Shown piece after piece: positions 13,252 to 22,836 of a stretch of 50,493 nt of DNA. The stretch covers positions 1-50,493 of the forward strand of contig JADGOR010000005.1 in assembly GCA_017882855.1 (NCBI GenBank), in the 5' to 3' direction. Within the stretch, counting starts at the first letter, position 1, and each line of letters begins with the position of its first letter. The position numbers and the translations under genes are program-made. The stretch comes from Cellulomonas sp. (GTDB lineage: Bacteria; Actinomycetota; Actinomycetes; Actinomycetales; Cellulomonadaceae). The notes beneath the pieces are model-generated. The model had not been told where the DNA came from, ran no database searches, and saw only the letters and a list, made by a program, of their open reading frames with translations.

Positions 13252-13860
13252 TCAGCCGCGCAGGCGCTGCATCGCGAGCTGAACCAGCGCGATGAGAGCC
13301 TGCTTGGTTGCCGACCGAGACCGCGCGTCGGTGTACATGACCGGCACGTGCGCCGGGATCGACAGGGCCTCGCGGACATCGTCCAGCTGGTGACGAGCCA
13401 CGCCGTCGAAGCAGTTGACCGCGACGACGAACGGGATGGTGCGGCTCTCGAAGTAGTCGACTGCCGGGAAGCACTGGTCGAGACGCTCCGTGTCGACCAG
13501 GACGACGCCACCGATGGCACCGCGGACCAGGTCGTCCCACATGAAGAGGAAGCGGTCCTGGCCGGGTGTCCCGAACAGGTACAGCCACAGGGAACCGGGG
13601 AGCGCGATGCGACCGAAGTCCATGGCGACCGTCGTGGTCGTCTTGCGGTCGGACACTCCACCAGCGTCGTCGACGCCGACGGAGTGCTCCGTCATGGCGG
13701 CTTCGGTGTTGAGCGGCTCGATGTCGGAGATCGAGCCGATGAAGGTCGTCTTGCCGACGGCGAAGCCGCCTGCGACGACGATCTTGACAACGGTGGGGGC
13801 AACGCCTCCGCCGGCGACTGTACGACCGGCAATTGCGGTGTCAGAGGGCGGATATGCCAT
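13252..13860 (-). CDS. cvnD: Conservon GTPase CvnD
   Basis: This is a 202-residue small G protein of the actinobacterial CvnD type. The P-loop is GGFAVGKT at residues 31-38. The G2 threonines are in DRKTTTTVAMDFG. The G3 motif is FGTPGQ rather than DTAGQ and the G4 motif is NCFD rather than NKxD, both usual in this family. It is the last gene of cvnABCD and should exchange GDP/GTP in a complex with the roadblock and DUF742 proteins at the kinase. The ATG at 13860 lies within the end of cvnC (20-base overlap); a GTG at 13869 is an alternative. Confidence 0.92.
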   Translation of the reverse strand: MAYPPSDTAIAGRTVAGGGVAPTVVKIVVAGGFAVGKTTFIGSISDIEPLNTEAAMTEHSVGVDDAGGVSDRKTTTTVAMDFGRIALPGSLWLYLFGTPGQDRFLFMWDDLVRGAIGGVVLVDTERLDQCFPAVDYFESRTIPFVVAVNCFDGVARHQLDDVREALSIPAHVPVMYTDARSRSATKQALIALVQLAMQRLRG

Positions 13861-14233
13861 TGAGAACACTCTCCAGCACGCTGAGGGATAGGGCGGGGTT
13901 CTGACCGGTCTCTGGGCTGACCGGAGTCGAGAGGTGGATCTTGAGATAGCTCGCGTCGGACAGGTCGGTGACCAGGACCCGCACCACGCCGAGGGGCAAC
14001 CTGAGGTACGCGGAGAGTTCAGCGATCGAGACGAAGGTCGACGAGCACTCTTCGAGGATGCGGCGCTTCTCCGGGGTCAAGCCGCGGCTCGTGACTGCGC
14101 TGGGCAACGCCTCGACCAGGGCCTCTAGGGGCAGGTCACTGCTCGACATGGCGCGGCGTCCGCCGGTGACGGCGTACGGGCGCACGGTCGAGGTTTCGTC
14201 GTGCTCCTCGTCTGGCCCAGTCGGAAACGTCAT
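13841..14233 (-). CDS. cvnC: Conservon DUF742 protein CvnC
   Basis: This is a 130-residue DUF742 protein. The typical pattern is present: VRPYAVTGGR near 17-26, LPLEALV, PEKRRILEEC, SIAELSAYLRLPLGVVRVLVTDL (a winged-helix-like stretch) and the C-terminal LSVLESVLNGISAL. Members of this family sit between the roadblock protein and the GTPase in conservons and are thought to link them or bind DNA. The ATG at 14233 follows cvnB by 13 bases and the gene overlaps cvnD by 20 bases, consistent with one transcript and coupled translation. Confidence 0.92.
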   Translation of the reverse strand: MTFPTGPDEEHDETSTVRPYAVTGGRRAMSSSDLPLEALVEALPSAVTSRGLTPEKRRILEECSSTFVSIAELSAYLRLPLGVVRVLVTDLSDASYLKIHLSTPVSPETGQNPALSLSVLESVLNGISAL

Positions 14234-14246
14234 CGTCGTCTCCTTG

Positions 14247-14693
14247 TCAGGAGGTCGGCCTCAAGGCGCCGTCAACCGGAAGGCTGCTACGCATCTCAGT
14301 GATGAGCTGCGGGGTCAGCGTCGCCTCGGTCCGGGACACCAGCATGGCCATCTCGTAACCGATGAGTCCAACATCACAGCTGGATTCCGCGACCACGGCC
14401 AGGACAGAGCCGTTCGAGACAGACATCAGGAACAAGAACAACTCGTCCATCTCGACGATCGCTTGCCGAACCTCGCCAGCCTGGAGTTGGCGCGCAGCGC
14501 CTCGGGTCAGGCTGGACATGCCGGCGACGATGGCGGACATCTGGTCGCCACTGGTCCGGTCGAGATTCTGCGACATCGCCATCAGTAGGCCGTCCGCGGA
14601 GACGACCAGCGTGTGGCGCGTACCAGGAACGGTCCGGACGAAGTTGTCCAGAAGCCATCCGAAGTTCACGGCCTCGGTACTAAGCGCGGTCAC
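14247..14693 (-). CDS. cvnB: Conservon roadblock/LC7 protein CvnB
   Basis: This is a 148-residue roadblock/LC7 domain protein: FGWLLDNFVRTVPGTRHTLVVSADGLLMAMS at the start, then GDQMSAIVAGMSSLTRGAARQL, and ELFLFLMSVSNGSVLAVVA. Roadblock proteins dimerise and regulate small GTPases, here most likely CvnD. The gene lies 54 bases after cvnA and 13 before cvnC on the same strand. Confidence 0.93.
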   Translation of the reverse strand: MTALSTEAVNFGWLLDNFVRTVPGTRHTLVVSADGLLMAMSQNLDRTSGDQMSAIVAGMSSLTRGAARQLQAGEVRQAIVEMDELFLFLMSVSNGSVLAVVAESSCDVGLIGYEMAMLVSRTEATLTPQLITEMRSSLPVDGALRPTS

Positions 14694-14747
14694 TTTGGTC
14701 CTCCTCAGGGGTACAACGCGGTGCTGCCATGGTAGTTGTCATTGTCA

Positions 14748-17700
14748 TCAGCCTCGAGACGCGCTCTCGCTCGGGTCCAGGCCGGCGGAGTAACCGCCGC
14801 TCGGGTCATTCCCAAGATTCGGTGCGCCCTCCGCCGACGGCGTTCCGGGTGCGATGTGGGCGGCGCGCCGACCACGGGACGACCCGGACTGGAAACTGGC
14901 CAGTAGGGAACGCACCTGCTCGGCGTCGCGGGCTTCCCGCGGCTCAGATGCGGTCGATACTGCACCACCCGCTGCAACTGCTGCTGGATGGGTGGCGATC
15001 AGTGGTGTCTCCGGCACGGCGGCGGGCACCCGACGCTTGAGCGCCGTCCTGCCTCCGTCCACGGTGCTCGGGCGATAGGACGAGAGCTGGCTGAACTCGG
15101 AGAGTGCCTGCTGCGCGATGTCAGAGCGCTCCGCAAGCATACGGGCCGCGTCACTTGCCATGGAGCCGATCGGAGCGAAGTCCGGGACAAAAGTCGGCTT
15201 GTAGGGGCGCGCGCCGGAGCCGTCGCCGTCGTGCGGTGCGTAGGGCATCGCGCCGGAGCCGGTGGGAGCGGGGGTGAACGCCGGGCTGGTCGTCGGGAAC
15301 TCGACGGGCTCGTACGGACGCTGGGACAGCTCGTCCGCGCCGTACGTCGCCGCGTACGGGCTCGGTTCCGGGATGGGCGCGGGTGTGGACTCGAACACCG
15401 GCGGTTCGTAGGCCTGCGGCGTCCAGGCCGCGGGGTACACGGGGTACAGCGACTCGGCCGGAGGCGCTGGTGGCGGCGGGACGTAGGCCGACTGGGCTGC
15501 GGGCGCAGGTGCCACGGGGTATGCCGACGCGGCCGGCGGTGCCGGGTAGGCGGAGAACGCCGACTCCGTCGGCTGAGTCTCAGGTGCCGGGTAGGCGGAG
15601 AACGCCGACTCCGTCGGCTGAGTCTCAGGCGCCGGGTAGGCGGACAACACCGATTCGGCCGGCTCAGTCTCAGGCGCCGGGTAGGCCTTCACGGCTTCGT
15701 CCGAAGCCCAAGCCGGGGTCGGCGGAGCCGCGACGACTGGCTGCGCGGTCCGTGTGCCGGCGGCGACGGGACCTGGCCGGACGATGGCCGAGAAGTCGTC
15801 AAGCGCCGGCGGTGCAGGCGTGACGCTGGGGACCTGCTTCCGGCGACCGAACACGCGCCGGAAGAATCCCGGCTTCGGCGCGGTCGGGGCCCCGACGAGG
15901 ATCTCCGAGAAGCCCGGGCCGGCAGGAAGCGCCGTCGCGTGCGACTCTGCGGCTTCGGACGAACCGCCGAACGCGGGGCTGGGCTCGGCACTCGGGACGG
16001 GGCTCTCACGCGGGTACTCGACGTAGGCATTCGGGCTCGGGTACGACGCAGCCTCGGCAGGCGGGTACGACTCGTACTGGATCGGGACCTCTGGAGCACT
16101 GTCGACTCCGTACGCGGCCTCCGCGAAGCTCGAACCGTCAAACACCGGGAATGCGGAGGGCTCGAGAGCGACCGCGCCGGAGGACGGCGCGTGGTGGTCG
16201 TCCACGGCGTTCCGCGCGCCGAAGTCGGCGCCCGCCGCAGCAACTTCGTCACCCTGCGTCGGAGTCGCCTCGCTGGCGCGGCCGAACTCGGCTTCGAACG
16301 GGGTGACGTCGTAGTCGTCATCGGGCTCGAGTCCGGGAACGACGAACGGCGGCGGCTCTTGCTCACCGAAGCCGGCACCCTGGAACTCAGGCTCCTCCGG
16401 CTGTGCGCTCGCGCCCGAGGTGGTCTCGAACCCGAGACCGGGCTCGGCCGTCACGCCACTCGGGGCGCCGTCGAAAGTGTCGTCGGCGACGTGGTGGCCG
16501 ATCGACGTCGACGCGGTGGTCGCGGCCGCGGCCGCGGACCACTCTTCGACCTCGGCGGGCTGGGGCTCGGGCTGGGGCTCGGGCTCGGGCGTGGACATGG
16601 TCGGCACCGGGAGGCTCGGCTCCGATGGCTCGGACCGCTTCTCGACCACGGGAACGAGCGGTGTCGACGACGGGATCATCACCGGTTGGAACGGTACTTC
16701 CTCGGCGGACTCGGTACCTGCCTGAGCTGCACCGCGGCGCGACCGGAAGCCGGAGAACATCCCGGCGCGACTCGCGGCGTCGGGGGCCGGGGTCGTGGAG
16801 TCGAACACGCCGTCGGGAGACCATCCGGCAAGCGATGGGAGAGCCGGCAGGACGTGCCGACCAGCCGCAAGGTCCGCTTCCGAGATGGGCACGGCAGTGA
16901 TCGGCGACCCGTCGTCGGCGCGGGTGCGACGGCGTGGCAGCCCAAGCTCGGTCTGACCATCCGTCAGGTCCGCAAGGTTGACCGCCTTGACGAGCGGCGG
17001 CTCCGGCTCGACAGATGTCTCCGCCGCGGCGCGACGGGCCGGCAGGTCGGCCGCCGCGTGGTCTCGGGTCGGCAGACCGGTGGCCGTTGCCTGGCCGAAG
17101 GACTCGAGGGGCTCGAGCGGCTCGAGCGGCGCGTCCCGCCGGATCTGCGGGGCGTAGATGTCGCCGGCCGGAACGAACGGGGTCTGTGCCGACGCGGCTG
17201 CAGCACCCGGCACGTGGATCTCGCGGTGCTCCTCGGCGAGGAACAGGGTGCGCGGGAAGGTGATGGTGGCAAGGGTGCCCGAGCCGGCTTGAGACTTCGA
17301 CAGCACAACGGATGCGTTGAGCCGTTGGGCGATGCGGCCGACCACGTAGAGACCAAGACGCTGCGTGCCCAGGACGTCGCCGGCGGAGACCGACGAGATC
17401 TTCTCGTTCGCCGCCGCGAGCTCGTCATTCGACATCCCGAGCCCGTGGTCAGCGATCGTGACAGTCACGCTGAGGTCGTCCATCGCGGTCTCGACCTCGA
17501 CCGGGGTGCCCGGCTCCGAGAACACCGTCGCGTTCTCGAGGAGCTCGGCCATCAGGTGCGCGGACGCCAGGGCGTTGTGCCCGAGCATCGACGGGTCGAT
17601 CGGCAGGGCCAGCTGGACCCGCTCATAGTGCTCGATCTCGCTGGACGCCGTCCGGATCACGTTCGACAACGTCATCTGGCCACGGATGCGACGACCGGAG

Positions 17701-19196
17701 TCGATCCCGGCAAGCACCAGGAGCGACTCGGCGTTGCGGCGCATCCGGGTGGCGAGGTGGTCCAGCCTGAACAGGTTGCCCAGCGTGTCCGGGTCCTCTT
17801 CGGCGCGCTCGAGCTGGTCGAGGAAGCCGAGCTGCCGGTTGAGCAGGACCTGGTCGCGCCGAGCCACGTTGACGAACATCTCAGCGATGGAACCACGCAG
17901 GGCGGCTTGCTCCTGGGCGATCCGGACAGTGGTCTCGTTCACGCCGTTGAACGCTGCGGCGAGCCGGCCCACTTCGTCGTTGGACTCGACCGGAATCCTG
18001 GTGAGCTCGATGTCCGGTCCTTGACCCGGGACCGACACCTGCTCGACAAGGCGTGGCAGGTCCTCCTCGACCTTCGCGGTCGCGGCCGTCAGGCGGCGCA
18101 GCGGGCGGATGATGAGGCGGGCGGTGGCCAGGGCGATGAGGGTCGAGGCGCCGAGGATGCCCAGGGTTGCGGCAATAGTGCCGAGCATGTTCCGCACCGC
18201 GTTGCTCGCAGCCAACGATGCCTGGTCGTTGGCGCGTGTCCACAAGTCCCCGCGCAATTTGTCGAGGGCAGCGGTCTCCTTGTCGGCCTGGCCGCGGAAG
18301 TCGATCTCGCGGAGCTGCTGCAGGTTGGCGACCGTGCCCGCGGCGATCTGCGTGCGCGAGAGCTCGAAGGACAGGAAGGGTGAGCCGGTGAGCGACGCAC
18401 CGAGGTCGGGAAGCGCGAGCGCGGGGTCCTGGAACTGCGCGAGCTGGGTCTTGGCGGCTCCATGGATGATATCGCTCGCTGCGAAGGTAAGGACCGCAAG
18501 CTGGCGCTGCTGGGGCTCGAGGTCCTGAACCGTTGCCACGCCGAGCCGCAGCATCTCCAGACCGATGACCTTGTCCTGCTCCAGGTACTCGACGACGTTG
18601 TCGGCAGCCGCGGTCGAGGCGAGCGACAGGGCGACGTCGCTGTTGGCGACCGATGTGGCCGAGCGCTGCAAGAACTGGATCTGCGCGGTGATCAAGGTCG
18701 TGTAGTCACCACGGATGTTCGCGAGATTCGCGGTCGCCACGGTGTCCACCCGTCCGCGGAGCGCGACGAGCTTTTGCAGCTCGGTCTGGGCGTCGGTTGC
18801 GGCGGTCCGAACAGTCGGATCGAGGAGGGTGTACTCGACGGTCGTGATGTCACGAGTGAATCGCGAGACCGCGGTATTCGTCGACCCACGCGAAGCGGTG
18901 ACGGCGGCGAGCTTCTCGGCGGCCGCGTCCACCTGGGCCCCGTTGGTCGACACGTTGATGGTGCTGTGGCTGGGGTTCGGGTCTACGAAGATGATCGAGG
19001 TGTCTCGCTCGAGCTGCAGCGCCGCTACCACGTCTCGCGACTCGCCCAGGGAAATCAACAGGCTCTGGACTGCGGCAGCACGCTGGGACTGGTCCCGGGC
19101 TTGGGCAGAGATGACTCCGGCGGCCACGAACAGCACGAGGAGCGGCATGGCAAGGACCGCAAGGATCTTCCCGCGAATGCCGAGCCTGCGGAGCAT
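14748..19196 (-). CDS. cvnA: Conservon sensor histidine kinase CvnA with very long tail
   Basis: This is a 1482-residue membrane sensor kinase. TM1 is at about 10-32. A NIT-like extracytoplasmic sensor helix bundle spans about 35-320, TM2 about 335-357, and a HAMP-like linker follows. The kinase core includes LFRLDHLATRMRRNAESLLVLAG in the place of the histidine-bearing helix, the N box ELLENATVFS, and G boxes DHGLGMS and LGLYVVGRIA (about 540-650). The remaining 820 or so residues are low-complexity, rich in Pro, Glu, Ala and Ser, with three 15-residue repeats, a basic patch FRRVFGRRK and a conserved-looking end DAEQVRSLLASFQSG. The ATG at 19196 has AAGGGG five bases before it. It is the first gene of cvnABCD. 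Confidence 0.93.
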   Translation of the reverse strand: MLRRLGIRGKILAVLAMPLLVLFVAAGVISAQARDQSQRAAAVQSLLISLGESRDVVAALQLERDTSIIFVDPNPSHSTINVSTNGAQVDAAAEKLAAVTASRGSTNTAVSRFTRDITTVEYTLLDPTVRTAATDAQTELQKLVALRGRVDTVATANLANIRGDYTTLITAQIQFLQRSATSVANSDVALSLASTAAADNVVEYLEQDKVIGLEMLRLGVATVQDLEPQQRQLAVLTFAASDIIHGAAKTQLAQFQDPALALPDLGASLTGSPFLSFELSRTQIAAGTVANLQQLREIDFRGQADKETAALDKLRGDLWTRANDQASLAASNAVRNMLGTIAATLGILGASTLIALATARLIIRPLRRLTAATAKVEEDLPRLVEQVSVPGQGPDIELTRIPVESNDEVGRLAAAFNGVNETTVRIAQEQAALRGSIAEMFVNVARRDQVLLNRQLGFLDQLERAEEDPDTLGNLFRLDHLATRMRRNAESLLVLAGIDSGRRIRGQMTLSNVIRTASSEIEHYERVQLALPIDPSMLGHNALASAHLMAELLENATVFSEPGTPVEVETAMDDLSVTVTIADHGLGMSNDELAAANEKISSVSAGDVLGTQRLGLYVVGRIAQRLNASVVLSKSQAGSGTLATITFPRTLFLAEEHREIHVPGAAAASAQTPFVPAGDIYAPQIRRDAPLEPLEPLESFGQATATGLPTRDHAAADLPARRAAAETSVEPEPPLVKAVNLADLTDGQTELGLPRRRTRADDGSPITAVPISEADLAAGRHVLPALPSLAGWSPDGVFDSTTPAPDAASRAGMFSGFRSRRGAAQAGTESAEEVPFQPVMIPSSTPLVPVVEKRSEPSEPSLPVPTMSTPEPEPQPEPQPAEVEEWSAAAAATTASTSIGHHVADDTFDGAPSGVTAEPGLGFETTSGASAQPEEPEFQGAGFGEQEPPPFVVPGLEPDDDYDVTPFEAEFGRASEATPTQGDEVAAAGADFGARNAVDDHHAPSSGAVALEPSAFPVFDGSSFAEAAYGVDSAPEVPIQYESYPPAEAASYPSPNAYVEYPRESPVPSAEPSPAFGGSSEAAESHATALPAGPGFSEILVGAPTAPKPGFFRRVFGRRKQVPSVTPAPPALDDFSAIVRPGPVAAGTRTAQPVVAAPPTPAWASDEAVKAYPAPETEPAESVLSAYPAPETQPTESAFSAYPAPETQPTESAFSAYPAPPAASAYPVAPAPAAQSAYVPPPPAPPAESLYPVYPAAWTPQAYEPPVFESTPAPIPEPSPYAATYGADELSQRPYEPVEFPTTSPAFTPAPTGSGAMPYAPHDGDGSGARPYKPTFVPDFAPIGSMASDAARMLAERSDIAQQALSEFSQLSSYRPSTVDGGRTALKRRVPAAVPETPLIATHPAAVAAGGAVSTASEPREARDAEQVRSLLASFQSGSSRGRRAAHIAPGTPSAEGAPNLGNDPSGGYSAGLDPSESASRG
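15541..15690. repeat. Three 45-bp tandem repeats in cvnA
   Basis: Units 15541-15585 and 15586-15630 differ by one base; the third, 15631-15675, is more diverged and a partial fourth follows. Each encodes a 15-residue unit such as AYPAPETQPTESAFS in the disordered kinase tail. The near identity of two copies suggests a recent duplication. Confidence 0.9.
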
Positions 19197-19395
19197 GGCT
19201 ACCCCTTCTCCCACCCTGCCGACGCCGCCCGAGCAGCAAGTCGCCGACGGTCACACAACGATCGATCGTAAAAGCCTCATCGGCCTCCACGTCTCCGACC
19301 ATTAGTGATCAGGAGAACAATGTCTCACTCAGGAGACCGCGATGTGAGCCGGCCACGTACCAGGGCGGACCCGCCCCTGAGGCATCACGCGACCG
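19197..19395. promoter_or_regulatory. Divergent promoter region cvnA / quinone oxidoreductase
   Basis: These 199 bases contain no gene. A perfect 12-bp palindrome ACGATCGATCGT (19258-19269) overlaps TACGAT (minus strand, 19265-19270), a possible -10 box for cvnA, leaving a leader of about 60 bases. The -10 of the oxidoreductase, TAGTGT, lies at 19396-19401. Confidence 0.4.
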
Positions 19396-19408
19396 TAGTG
19401 TTGTGCTT

Positions 19409-20386
19409 GTGCACGCCATCACAGCACGACCCCGAGGCTCTCGGGAAGCCCTGCCGGAGGCCGGGTTCCCCTCCCCCGTGCCAGGGCCCACCGAAGTGCT
19501 CATCGAGGTGGCTGCCGCCGGTGTCAACCGCGCTGACCTGCTGCAACGCGCCGGACAGTACCCACCACCCCCTGGCGCGTCGCCCATTCTCGGGCTCGAG
19601 GTCTCCGGCGTGGTCACCGCCGTCGGGAGCCAGGTCCACGGGTGGGTCGAGGGGGATGCCGTGGCGGCCCTCCTTGCCGGTGGCGGCTACGCCGAGCAGG
19701 TGTGCGTCCCCGCGTCACAACTTCACCCGCTCCCCGCGTCCGTAGACCTCATCGACGCGGCCGCCCTTCCCGAGGCAGCAGCGACCTCGTGGGTCAGCCT
19801 GGTGGGCGCCGGCGGCTTGCGACCAGGGGACGCGGTGCTGGTGCACGGCGGGTCCGGCGGCGTCGGGACGTTCGCGATCCAGCTCGCCGCGGCACTCGGC
19901 GCCCGAGTGCTGACCACGGCCGGCGGGCCGGCTCGCTGCCGGCGGTGCCTCGAGCTCGGCGCCGACGTCGCGATCGATCACCGGAGCGAGGAGTTCGTCT
20001 CCCGGGTGCTCGAGGAGACCGACGGGCGCGGCGCCGACGTCGTGCTCGACGTGATCGGCGCCGACTACCTGGCGCGGAACCTGGCCGCGGTCGCGGTCGG
20101 TGGGCGGATCGTCGTCATCGGCCTGCAGCGCGGAGCGCGCGCCGAGCTCGATCTCGCCACCCTGCTCGCCAAGCGGGCGAGCATCATCGGCACGACGCTC
20201 CGATCGAGGTCCGCGGCCGAGAAGGCCGCCATCGTCGCCGACGTCACCGAGCACGTCTGGCCACTCCTCGAGGCCGGCACCATCCACCCGGTGATCCACG
20301 CCCGCCTGCCACTCGACCAGGCCGATCGGGCGCACGAGATGCTGCGCACTGGCGAAGCCTTCGGCAAGGTCCTACTGATCCCCTGA
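19409..20386 (+). CDS. Zinc-independent NAD(P)H:quinone oxidoreductase (QOR family)
   Basis: This is a 325-residue medium-chain dehydrogenase/reductase. The N-terminal GroES-like fold contains AAAGVNRADLLQRAGQYPPPPG, the hallmark of the quinone oxidoreductase branch. The Rossmann fold has VHGGSGGVGTFAIQLA for NADPH. The catalytic zinc ligands of alcohol dehydrogenases are absent, as expected for this branch. The likely reaction is NADPH-dependent reduction of quinones or enones in the cytoplasm. The GTG at 19409 lies seven bases after TAGTGT and fits a leaderless message; GTG 19403 is in frame. It diverges from cvnA. Confidence 0.9.
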   Translation: MHAITARPRGSREALPEAGFPSPVPGPTEVLIEVAAAGVNRADLLQRAGQYPPPPGASPILGLEVSGVVTAVGSQVHGWVEGDAVAALLAGGGYAEQVCVPASQLHPLPASVDLIDAAALPEAAATSWVSLVGAGGLRPGDAVLVHGGSGGVGTFAIQLAAALGARVLTTAGGPARCRRCLELGADVAIDHRSEEFVSRVLEETDGRGADVVLDVIGADYLARNLAAVAVGGRIVVIGLQRGARAELDLATLLAKRASIIGTTLRSRSAAEKAAIVADVTEHVWPLLEAGTIHPVIHARLPLDQADRAHEMLRTGEAFGKVLLIP

Positions 20387-21773: not shown

Positions 21774-22727
21774 CTACGCTACCGCCCGTCGTCGCGCCAT
21801 CGTGAGCGCGATGGCGCCGGAGACGAGGGTCAGGCCCACCACCTCGAGGGTGCGCGGGATCTGACCGAGCACCACCACGCCGACGATCATCGCCGTCGCC
21901 GGAAGCATGGCCAGCAGGACCGCGAACGTGGCCGCGCTGGTACGGCGCATCACGACCTGGTCGATCGCGTAGGGGATGACCGAGGAGAGGACCGCCACGC
22001 CGACGACGGCGAGCGCCACCGACCACGACGTGACCATCGGTAGCGCCCACCACGCGAGGGCCGGCGTGAACACGATCGCCCCTGCCGCCATCGACATCGA
22101 CAGGTTGGTGACGCCCGACCCGTGCTGCGAGACGCGGCGGCCGATCAGGATGTACCCCGCCCAGAAGGTCGCGGCGAGAGCGATGGCGACCAGCCCGAGC
22201 GTCGCCTCGTGCCCGGCCAGCACTCCCGGCGCGGGGTGCGGGGCGATCGGTCCGCGACTGCCGCTCGCCGGCCGGTCCAGCTCGAGCGTGACGCCCGCGA
22301 GCAGGACGACCCCGACCGCGGCCAGGGCGATCGCGGCCCGCTCGCGCCAACCGCGACCGGTGATCGCACCGACCGCGACCGGGCCGCTGAACTCGATCGC
22401 GACTGCGGTGCCGAGCGGGAGGTAGTGGATGGCCGTGTAGAAGGTGATGTTCATGGCCGCGAGCACGACGCCGAACTCGATCAGGACGCGGAGCTCGTGC
22501 CGCGACCAGGACTGCCGCCACGGTCGGCGCCAGAGGACCAGCACGACGGCCGCGATGACGAGGCGGAGCCAGGCCACCGTCGCGGGCGGCATCACGGCGA
22601 AGAGCCCGATCGCCAGCGCCGCACCGAGGTACTGGGTGAGCCCGGAAGCGAAGAACAGGGCGGGAGCGGGGATGCGGTCCACGGCGTGCGGTGGCCCGCC
22701 CGCCAGGCGTCGTGTGCTGCCCGTCAC
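21774..22727 (-). CDS. EamA-family membrane exporter
   Basis: This is a 317-residue drug/metabolite transporter of the EamA type with ten predicted membrane helices in two repeats; the first repeat starts ALFFASGLTQYLGAALAIGL and the second near GLVAIALAATFWAGYILIG. Conserved proline-rich turns (PYAIDQVVMRR) are present. RhtA-like members export amino acids or other metabolites. The GTG at 22727 lies six bases after TACGCT, a leaderless arrangement. The sugar isomerase follows 32 bases later; a link to sugar export is possible but unproven. Confidence 0.87.
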   Translation of the reverse strand: MTGSTRRLAGGPPHAVDRIPAPALFFASGLTQYLGAALAIGLFAVMPPATVAWLRLVIAAVVLVLWRRPWRQSWSRHELRVLIEFGVVLAAMNITFYTAIHYLPLGTAVAIEFSGPVAVGAITGRGWRERAAIALAAVGVVLLAGVTLELDRPASGSRGPIAPHPAPGVLAGHEATLGLVAIALAATFWAGYILIGRRVSQHGSGVTNLSMSMAAGAIVFTPALAWWALPMVTSWSVALAVVGVAVLSSVIPYAIDQVVMRRTSAATFAVLLAMLPATAMIVGVVVLGQIPRTLEVVGLTLVSGAIALTMARRRAVA

Positions 22728-22836
22728 CGGCCCAGCGTAGGACCCGGCGGCACGCGCGACATCATCGATGCCGGCGGCCACGCCAGCGCATCGTGCTCTC
22801 AGCGACGGGCCGGCTCCAACCTGCGGCAGGGCCGAT

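Follow-up and report, generated by a model that had tools for sequence, protein, structure and literature searches.

What might a sensor kinase do with a disordered tail that is longer than its sensor and kinase parts together? The question arises from a stretch of 50,493 nucleotides of Cellulomonas sp. (assembly GCA_017882855.1, contig JADGOR010000005.1, positions 1 to 50,493; hereafter the window), the minus strand of which carries cvnA, cvnB, cvnC and cvnD between positions 13,252 and 19,196 in the canonical order of a conservon, or actinobacterial G protein system (AGPS). A preliminary description of this DNA had divided the kinase CvnA into about 660 residues of sensor and kinase and about 820 residues of Pro/Glu/Ala/Ser-rich sequence, and had suggested that the latter may act as a scaffold for the roadblock, DUF742 and GTPase partners. 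The open reading frames and their Pfam families bear out the gene order, and we found about 650 residues followed by a tail of 832, the composition of which (Ala 17.9%, Pro 15.5%, Ser 9.6%, Glu 8.3%) agrees with that account. The answer towards which we lean is that the tail is a tether, and that a conserved motif near its end may hold the products of the other three genes at the kinase.

A disordered tail with conserved islands

In an AlphaFold2 model of CvnA residues 359 to 1482, run with a 51-sequence family alignment, the predicted local distance difference test (pLDDT) score was below 50 at 728 of 1124 residues, nearly all of them in the tail (mean pLDDT 51), as the preliminary description would lead one to expect. 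The pLDDT was used instead of a charge-hydropathy score, which is uninformative for so Ala-rich a tail. Only two helices were modelled in the tail (model residues 989–1013 and 1067–1086, pLDDT mostly about 60 to 70), along with two bridges of two residues each, and both helices sit in the last two of the conserved islands described below. The idea that the tail is a known domain was dropped, no Pfam match to it being listed at E up to 10.

That the tail is a freak of this one genome is excluded by tail lengths in the family, by which we mean the window, genomes of the same family and 80 loci at 67–74% identity, the family membership of these 80 not being verified individually. Of 98 distinct sequences, 16 were cut by contig ends, and the remaining 82 complete tails, the window's included, span 530–1039 residues with a median of 764 (a filter for tails above 400 residues removed no closed open reading frame). 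By the boundary used here the window's tail measures 830 residues; 44 family tails are shorter and 37 longer. We are very confident that a long tail is the family norm. The preliminary description had implied that such a tail is rare, and had named equal lengths in most cvnA genes as a refuting result; within the family that is the result, since 63 of the 82 tails exceed 656 residues. Outside the family a long tail is indeed uncommon: the 86 other tails, which include 14 from loci of the same order and one second copy from a family genome, have a median of 231 residues, and 13 of them reach 500. Among 59 genomes searched as relatives, the CvnA core itself turned up in 47 (E 1e-20), 35 of the 37 same-family genomes among them, with open frames that measure 1190–1689 codons save for two truncated at contig ends and for one second copy. 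In a sample of the phylum, 34 of 296 genomes gave a match at E 1e-30, with open frames of 391–1776, at most seven candidates being scored per genome.

An open frame of 1131 codons runs antisense over the cvnA tail (Table 1), and of 79 family tails, the window's included, 51 have an in-phase antisense frame that stays open for at least 90% of their length. Such a frame may be explained without a gene, by the scarcity of sense TTA, CTA and TCA codons in high-GC DNA.

Conservation within the tail is concentrated in about five islands on a low background (51-row family alignment A1, neighbouring peaks merged). Four of these are listed in Table 1, and the fifth, residues 1418–1449, encloses a motif of 21 residues with the consensus R-D-A-E-x-V-R-S-x-L-S-x-F-Q-x-G-x-x-R-G-R; the consensus of 57 representatives has V at position 17 (R-D-A-E-x-V-R-S-x-L-S-x-F-Q-x-G-V-x-R-G-R). 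A hidden Markov model (HMM) built from family tails alone, with the 69 of 82 family sequences that fit a strict pattern as its training set, scored at least 5 bits in 44 of the 86 tails outside the family, against 2 of 1720 shuffled and none of 86 reversed tails.

An iterated HMM was applied to 180 kinases, obtained by reducing 226 core matches to 210 distinct cores and then removing those that were open-ended, truncated or had less than 2.2 kb downstream; sampling in this set is uneven, many rows coming from a few multi-copy genomes. At 6 bits or more the motif was found in 161 of 180 tails, training members included; of the controls, 2 of 3600 shuffled tails and none of the 180 reversed ones reached that score. 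All 79 family kinases and 82 of the 101 others carry it, and a threshold of 4 bits lets 11 of the 3600 shuffled tails through. We hold with high confidence that the motif is real, and it is common to conservon kinases of many families across the phylum. Its start lies 73 to 1006 residues past the HATPase domain and its end 5 to 196 residues (median 24) short of the C terminus, a variable distance, so that overlap with cvnB is not what holds it in place. Within the 80 residues before the motif, an [LG]P-x-R element (x being one of ten residues) is present in 67 of 161 cases, against 8.6 expected by shuffling. No description of the motif was found in the literature on conservons within parts of PMC13343842, PMC8510531, PMC9739842, PMC13015309 and PMC9769811 (each cited throughout from those parts), supplements and most subscription papers lying outside the search.

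These results bear on the view that the tail is merely a drifting low-complexity extension without function. The roughly twofold variation of tail length in the family and the low mean conservation between islands speak for drift; the islands, and a motif so much more frequent in real than in shuffled tails, make it very improbable.

Two observations concern individual kinases. One genome of the same family has a second, shorter conservon kinase (L134) with a tail of 205 residues in which the motif is still present. Three complete conservons of one genus (L089, L093 and L097) are without the end motif and end instead near a WSTPF or WSTPY sequence, which is possibly an alternative docking end.

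Partner genes and the docking interpretation

In the interpretation that we prefer, CvnA would be a sensor in the membrane whose histidine-kinase core is atypical and whose long disordered tail acts as a tether. The helical motif at the end of the tether would be a docking peptide and hold CvnB, CvnC and CvnD, as a module, at the kinase. A change in the core would then alter CvnB or CvnC and so the GTP state of CvnD. CvnB, a roadblock protein that acts as a GTPase-activating protein (GAP) in the mycobacterial system, would be the likeliest direct partner.

Gene content is consistent with such a role. Where cvnB adjoins the kinase gene the motif occurs in 156 of 166 loci, and where it does not, in 5 of 14 (Fisher 3e-7 on raw counts); the association was also seen when loci were grouped into identity clusters at 80% (p=0.00038, n=95) and at 70% (p=0.0064, n=70). 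A tail of at least 100 residues was found in all 166 loci with an adjacent cvnB, and of the 14 cvnB-less kinases 8 lack both a tail of that length and the motif. Together with the conservation of the end motif, this lends the earlier scaffold idea some support. For one of the five motif-bearing cvnB-less kinases, L117|79, the next operon does contain a cvnB. In the sampled loci cvnD was never seen without cvnB, and where cvnB is present without cvnD the motif is kept in 9 of 10 loci, a point against CvnD being the only partner.

Several results weigh on the other side. Over 47 clusters at 60% identity the association with cvnB gives only p=0.16, and at 70% identity cvnD (p=0.027) and cvnC (p=0.071) are associated with the motif in the same direction, if more weakly, so that cvnB is not singled out. 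Ten cvnB-bearing loci have no detectable motif. The association is moreover confounded with having a tail at all: among the six cvnB-less kinases whose tails reach 100 residues, five have kept the motif, and the signal is thus the loss of the tail as a unit. Motif distances correlate with those of CvnB at a rho of 0.45, and with those of CvnC, CvnD and the CvnA core at 0.39 each; bootstrap support for CvnB over CvnC is 0.87, and 10 of 30 control windows from the kinase core equal or exceed the partial correlation with CvnB. Since these control windows do as well, the distance correlation does not pick a partner. On balance we consider it somewhat probable that the motif docks the CvnB/CvnC/CvnD module. 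Direct docking to CvnB is a possibility that we put forward tentatively, and one to which the weaker cvnD and cvnC associations have led us to give less credit.

The same observations were weighed for a motif acting in cis, which would dock on the dimerization and histidine phosphotransfer (DHp) or the HATPase part of its own kinase dimer and gate its activity, with the tail as a flexible strap. Such a gate could account for the motif in the five kinases without adjacent cvnB and for the correlation of motif distances with the kinase core. So wide a range of linker lengths between HATPase domain and motif would probably be less tolerable for a gate than for a tether, however, and the eight cvnB-less kinases that lost tail and motif yet kept the core also speak against gating, which we regard as unlikely.

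The tail might instead reach a target outside the operon, be it the membrane, the envelope or another protein, its basic-aromatic islands binding membrane and its end motif some other target. Islands 2 and 3 (RAGMFSGFRSRR and GFFRRVFGRRK) suit this proposal, being basic, aromatic and conserved in the family alignment. Against it stands the end motif, which extends far past the family and occurs mostly in cvnB loci; the conservation of islands 2 and 3 was examined in the family alignment only. We consider the proposal quite unlikely.

Partial loci and scattered relatives were also recorded. Five loci of one family (L080, L081, L083, L091 and L098) are pairs of kinase and DUF742 genes without roadblock or GTPase neighbours; three of them have tails below 100 residues and no motif, and the other two combine longer tails with the motif. 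L099 and L107 resemble such pairs, though in both the contig or stretch stops shortly afterwards. Plasmid records with CvnB relatives, NZ_CP009112.1 and NZ_CP108601.1 among them, number 68, of which 51 are from Streptomyces, and some of the ten plasmid relatives listed adjoin DUF742 or nitrate-sensing kinase genes.

Histidines of the kinase core

On the histidines of the core the preliminary description, which had seen no obvious H-box in a standard context, proved right. Pfam gave no HisKA match in CvnA at E up to 0.01. The HATPase fold and a DHp-like helical hairpin are present (HATPase_c; model helices 50–106 and 111–137), and the best Foldseek matches are histidine kinases, CpxA and YycG among the first, with query-length template modelling scores of 0.09–0.15 that are low because most of the model is disordered. 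A HisKA-type H-box with a phosphoacceptor His in helix 1 was not found in CvnA: counted 27 residues back from the conserved LDH His, the helix-1 position is occupied by Asn in 79 of 79 family kinases, and of all 180 kinases only 25 have His there. The LDH His itself, in helix 2 of the modelled hairpin, is kept in 174 of 180 kinases and is the only near-invariant histidine of the DHp region; a second near-invariant one (168 of 180) is found next to the HATPase N-box. In alignments to CpxA, the window's CvnA has no His at the position of the CpxA H-box, or rather of the stretch that we take to be that H-box. When a profile built from 49 diverse cores is aligned, the LDH helix falls on a stretch of QseC, presumably its DHp helix 2, in which a His that we assume is not the phosphoacceptor stands one column off.

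CvnA could also be a phosphotransfer histidine kinase, perhaps by way of the LDH His of helix 2, whose output is the phosphorylation of CvnB or CvnC and whose tail is incidental; this would be compatible with docking. Besides the recognisable HATPase_c domain, the requirement of H183 for CvnA8 autophosphorylation points this way (PMC13343842). The CvnA8 construct comprised residues 55–518 (PMC13343842), and a short kinase in our set, L148, apparently of Streptomyces type, has 518 residues when read from the ATG at codon 28, with the LDH His at 185 and a helix-1 His at 157 (from the ATG at codon 11: 535 residues, 202 and 174). This length, and the nearness of 185 to 183, suggest that H183 may be the widely kept LDH His. 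The DHp limits given for CvnA8, V168–L228, would instead suit a helix-1 His as H183 (PMC13343842), and the missing HisKA match and the scarcity of His at the helix-1 site stand against phosphotransfer as well. We think this reading rather doubtful.

The docking interpretation can be extended to the whole phylum. In its extended form, a docking motif so far undescribed, borne by a disordered tether 73 to about 1000 residues long, would capture the roadblock/DUF742/GTPase module, and the signal would be relayed by recruitment or conformational change and not by classical phosphotransfer, most conservon kinases being without a helix-1 His. The chance that H183 of CvnA8 is the widely kept helix-2 His has made this less likely than we had thought, and as a whole it is open to considerable doubt.

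The 21-residue motif can be addressed directly with peptide-binding assays and point mutations, and would make the relay step testable if it does hold a partner protein. With the helix-1 His scarce and the helix-2 His near-invariant, H183 of CvnA8 is worth mapping before autophosphorylation is extended to all conservons. The value of following up this locus lies in the end motif and the missing helix-1 histidine, both of which are wider than this window.

The locus and comparable systems

The locus is almost certainly an ordinary conservon, as it has the gene order on one strand, the roadblock, DUF742 and Ras-like GTPase proteins, and the membrane kinase with a HATPase domain that define an AGPS, together with the NIT and HAMP domains that are optional in such a kinase (Table 1). 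A GTG at 19214 is also open as a cvnA start, and hydrophobic windows in CvnA start at residues 5–16 and 337–345. In CvnD, PF03029 (ATP_bind_1) scores above its cut-off, GTP_EFTU (E=0.0028) and TIGR00231 small_GTP (E=1.9e-4) score below theirs, and the naming rests on operon position too. The overlaps between genes described earlier apply to cvnC and cvnD only (up to 29 nucleotides, 13841–13869); cvnA and cvnB lie 54 nucleotides apart, and cvnB and cvnC 13. A single DUF742 gene was found in the source genome (2.36 Mb, 199 contigs, 90.6% complete), and this is the only DUF742-bearing conservon found there; the remaining CvnA matches in that genome are distant (24–27% identity, in the kinase part).

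Table 1. Features of the conservon locus and its surroundings in the window. CvnA residue numbers are counted from the ATG at 19196.
Feature	Position	Strand	Details and basis
cvnA	14748..19196	-	1482 aa from presumed ATG start at 19196; GGAGAAGGGG upstream; open reading frame, sequence
NIT sensor domain, residues 55-256	18429..19034	-	Pfam PF08376 E=3.2e-9
HAMP domain, residues 358-417	17946..18125	-	Pfam PF00672 E=1.7e-8
Asn453, DHp helix-1 position	17838..17840	-	27 residues before LDH His
His480 in LDHLATRMRR, DHp helix 2 of modelled hairpin	17757..17759	-	LDH His
HATPase_c domain, residues 546-650	17247..17561	-	Pfam PF02518 E=3.5e-10
C-terminal tail, residues 651-1482 (832 aa)	14751..17246	-	Modelled as disordered
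Tail island 1, ADLTDGQTELGLPRRRTR region, residues 731-762	16911..17006	-	Family alignment A1
Tail island 2, three peaks merged, ending RAGMFSGFRSRR, residues 778-823	16728..16865	-	Family alignment A1
Tail island 3, basic-aromatic GFFRRVFGRRK, residues 1110-1123	15828..15869	-	Family alignment A1
Tail island 4, merged from two peaks and containing a predicted helix (AERSDIAQQALSEFSQLSSYRP), residues 1339-1397	15006..15182	-	Family alignment A1; AlphaFold2 helix
C-terminal motif RDAEQVRSLLASFQSGSSRGR, residues 1423-1443	14868..14930	-	Mostly predicted helix; 39 residues before C terminus
Antisense open frame over cvnA tail	14988..18383	+	1131 codons
cvnB, roadblock/LC7 protein, 148 aa	14247..14693	-	Pfam PF03259 (Robl_LC7) E=2.3e-21
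cvnC, DUF742 protein, 130 aa	13841..14233	-	Pfam PF05331 E=6e-26
cvnD, small GTPase of conservon type, at most 205 aa	13252..13869	-	Pfam PF03029 E=3.8e-27
Oxidoreductase gene, divergent from cvnA	19403..20386		Kept in 56/56 relative loci
Transporter gene, presumably EamA-type	21774..22781		Kept in 51/56 relative loci

No cvnE or cvnF follows cvnD; by Pfam, the next downstream gene on the same strand encodes a PIN-domain protein. The nearest named relatives, among the best 80 matches, belong to Cellulomonas, Actinotalea, Isoptericola, Oerskovia, Timonella and their kin, with 67–74% identity over the kinase core, which points to a source within Cellulomonadaceae broadly taken. Synteny was compared across 56 relative loci of at least 14 kb (within L156–L235). 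Besides the upstream oxidoreductase gene and the transporter gene that we take to be EamA-type (Table 1), the PIN gene is kept in 30 of the 56, a ThrE gene in 13, and two more distant genes, at the edge of the 7 kb examined, in 6 each. Judged by these conserved neighbours, the locus looks old within Cellulomonas-type relatives.

The Myxococcus MglA/MglB/RomR operon has, to our knowledge, no membrane kinase with a tether. It shares with the conservons a Ras-like GTPase with a roadblock GAP (PMC13343842). The mycobacterial mfp conservon (MfpE-MfpD-MfpC-MfpB-MfpA) has the same A–D core, but the gene after cvnD encodes a PIN-domain protein here and not the pentapeptide protein MfpA. In the mfp system the homologue of CvnB, MfpD, acts as a GAP, and that of CvnC, MfpC, is likely a guanine nucleotide exchange factor (PMC13343842). 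According to a preprint, the C-terminal domain of MfpE is longer in Actinobacteria and without notable conservation (PMC13015309), a claim that is qualified by the short motif found here in most conservon kinases sampled, among which no MfpE was identified by name.

The closest parallel is with the cvn1–13 conservons of Streptomyces coelicolor, which have the same four-gene order with a NIT-HAMP-HATPase kinase, a roadblock protein, a DUF742 protein and a GTPase (PMC13343842). A review states interactions for CvnA9–D9, with CvnA9 interacting with CvnB9 and CvnC9 (PMC9739842). CvnA8 is described with unstructured terminal regions, and what it acts on was stated as unknown in 2026 (PMC13343842). 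There is no categorical difference between the S. coelicolor conservons and the present one: cvnD is followed in the window by the PIN-domain gene in place of cvnE or cvnF, and the tail of its CvnA is longer than those of most kinases sampled outside the family.

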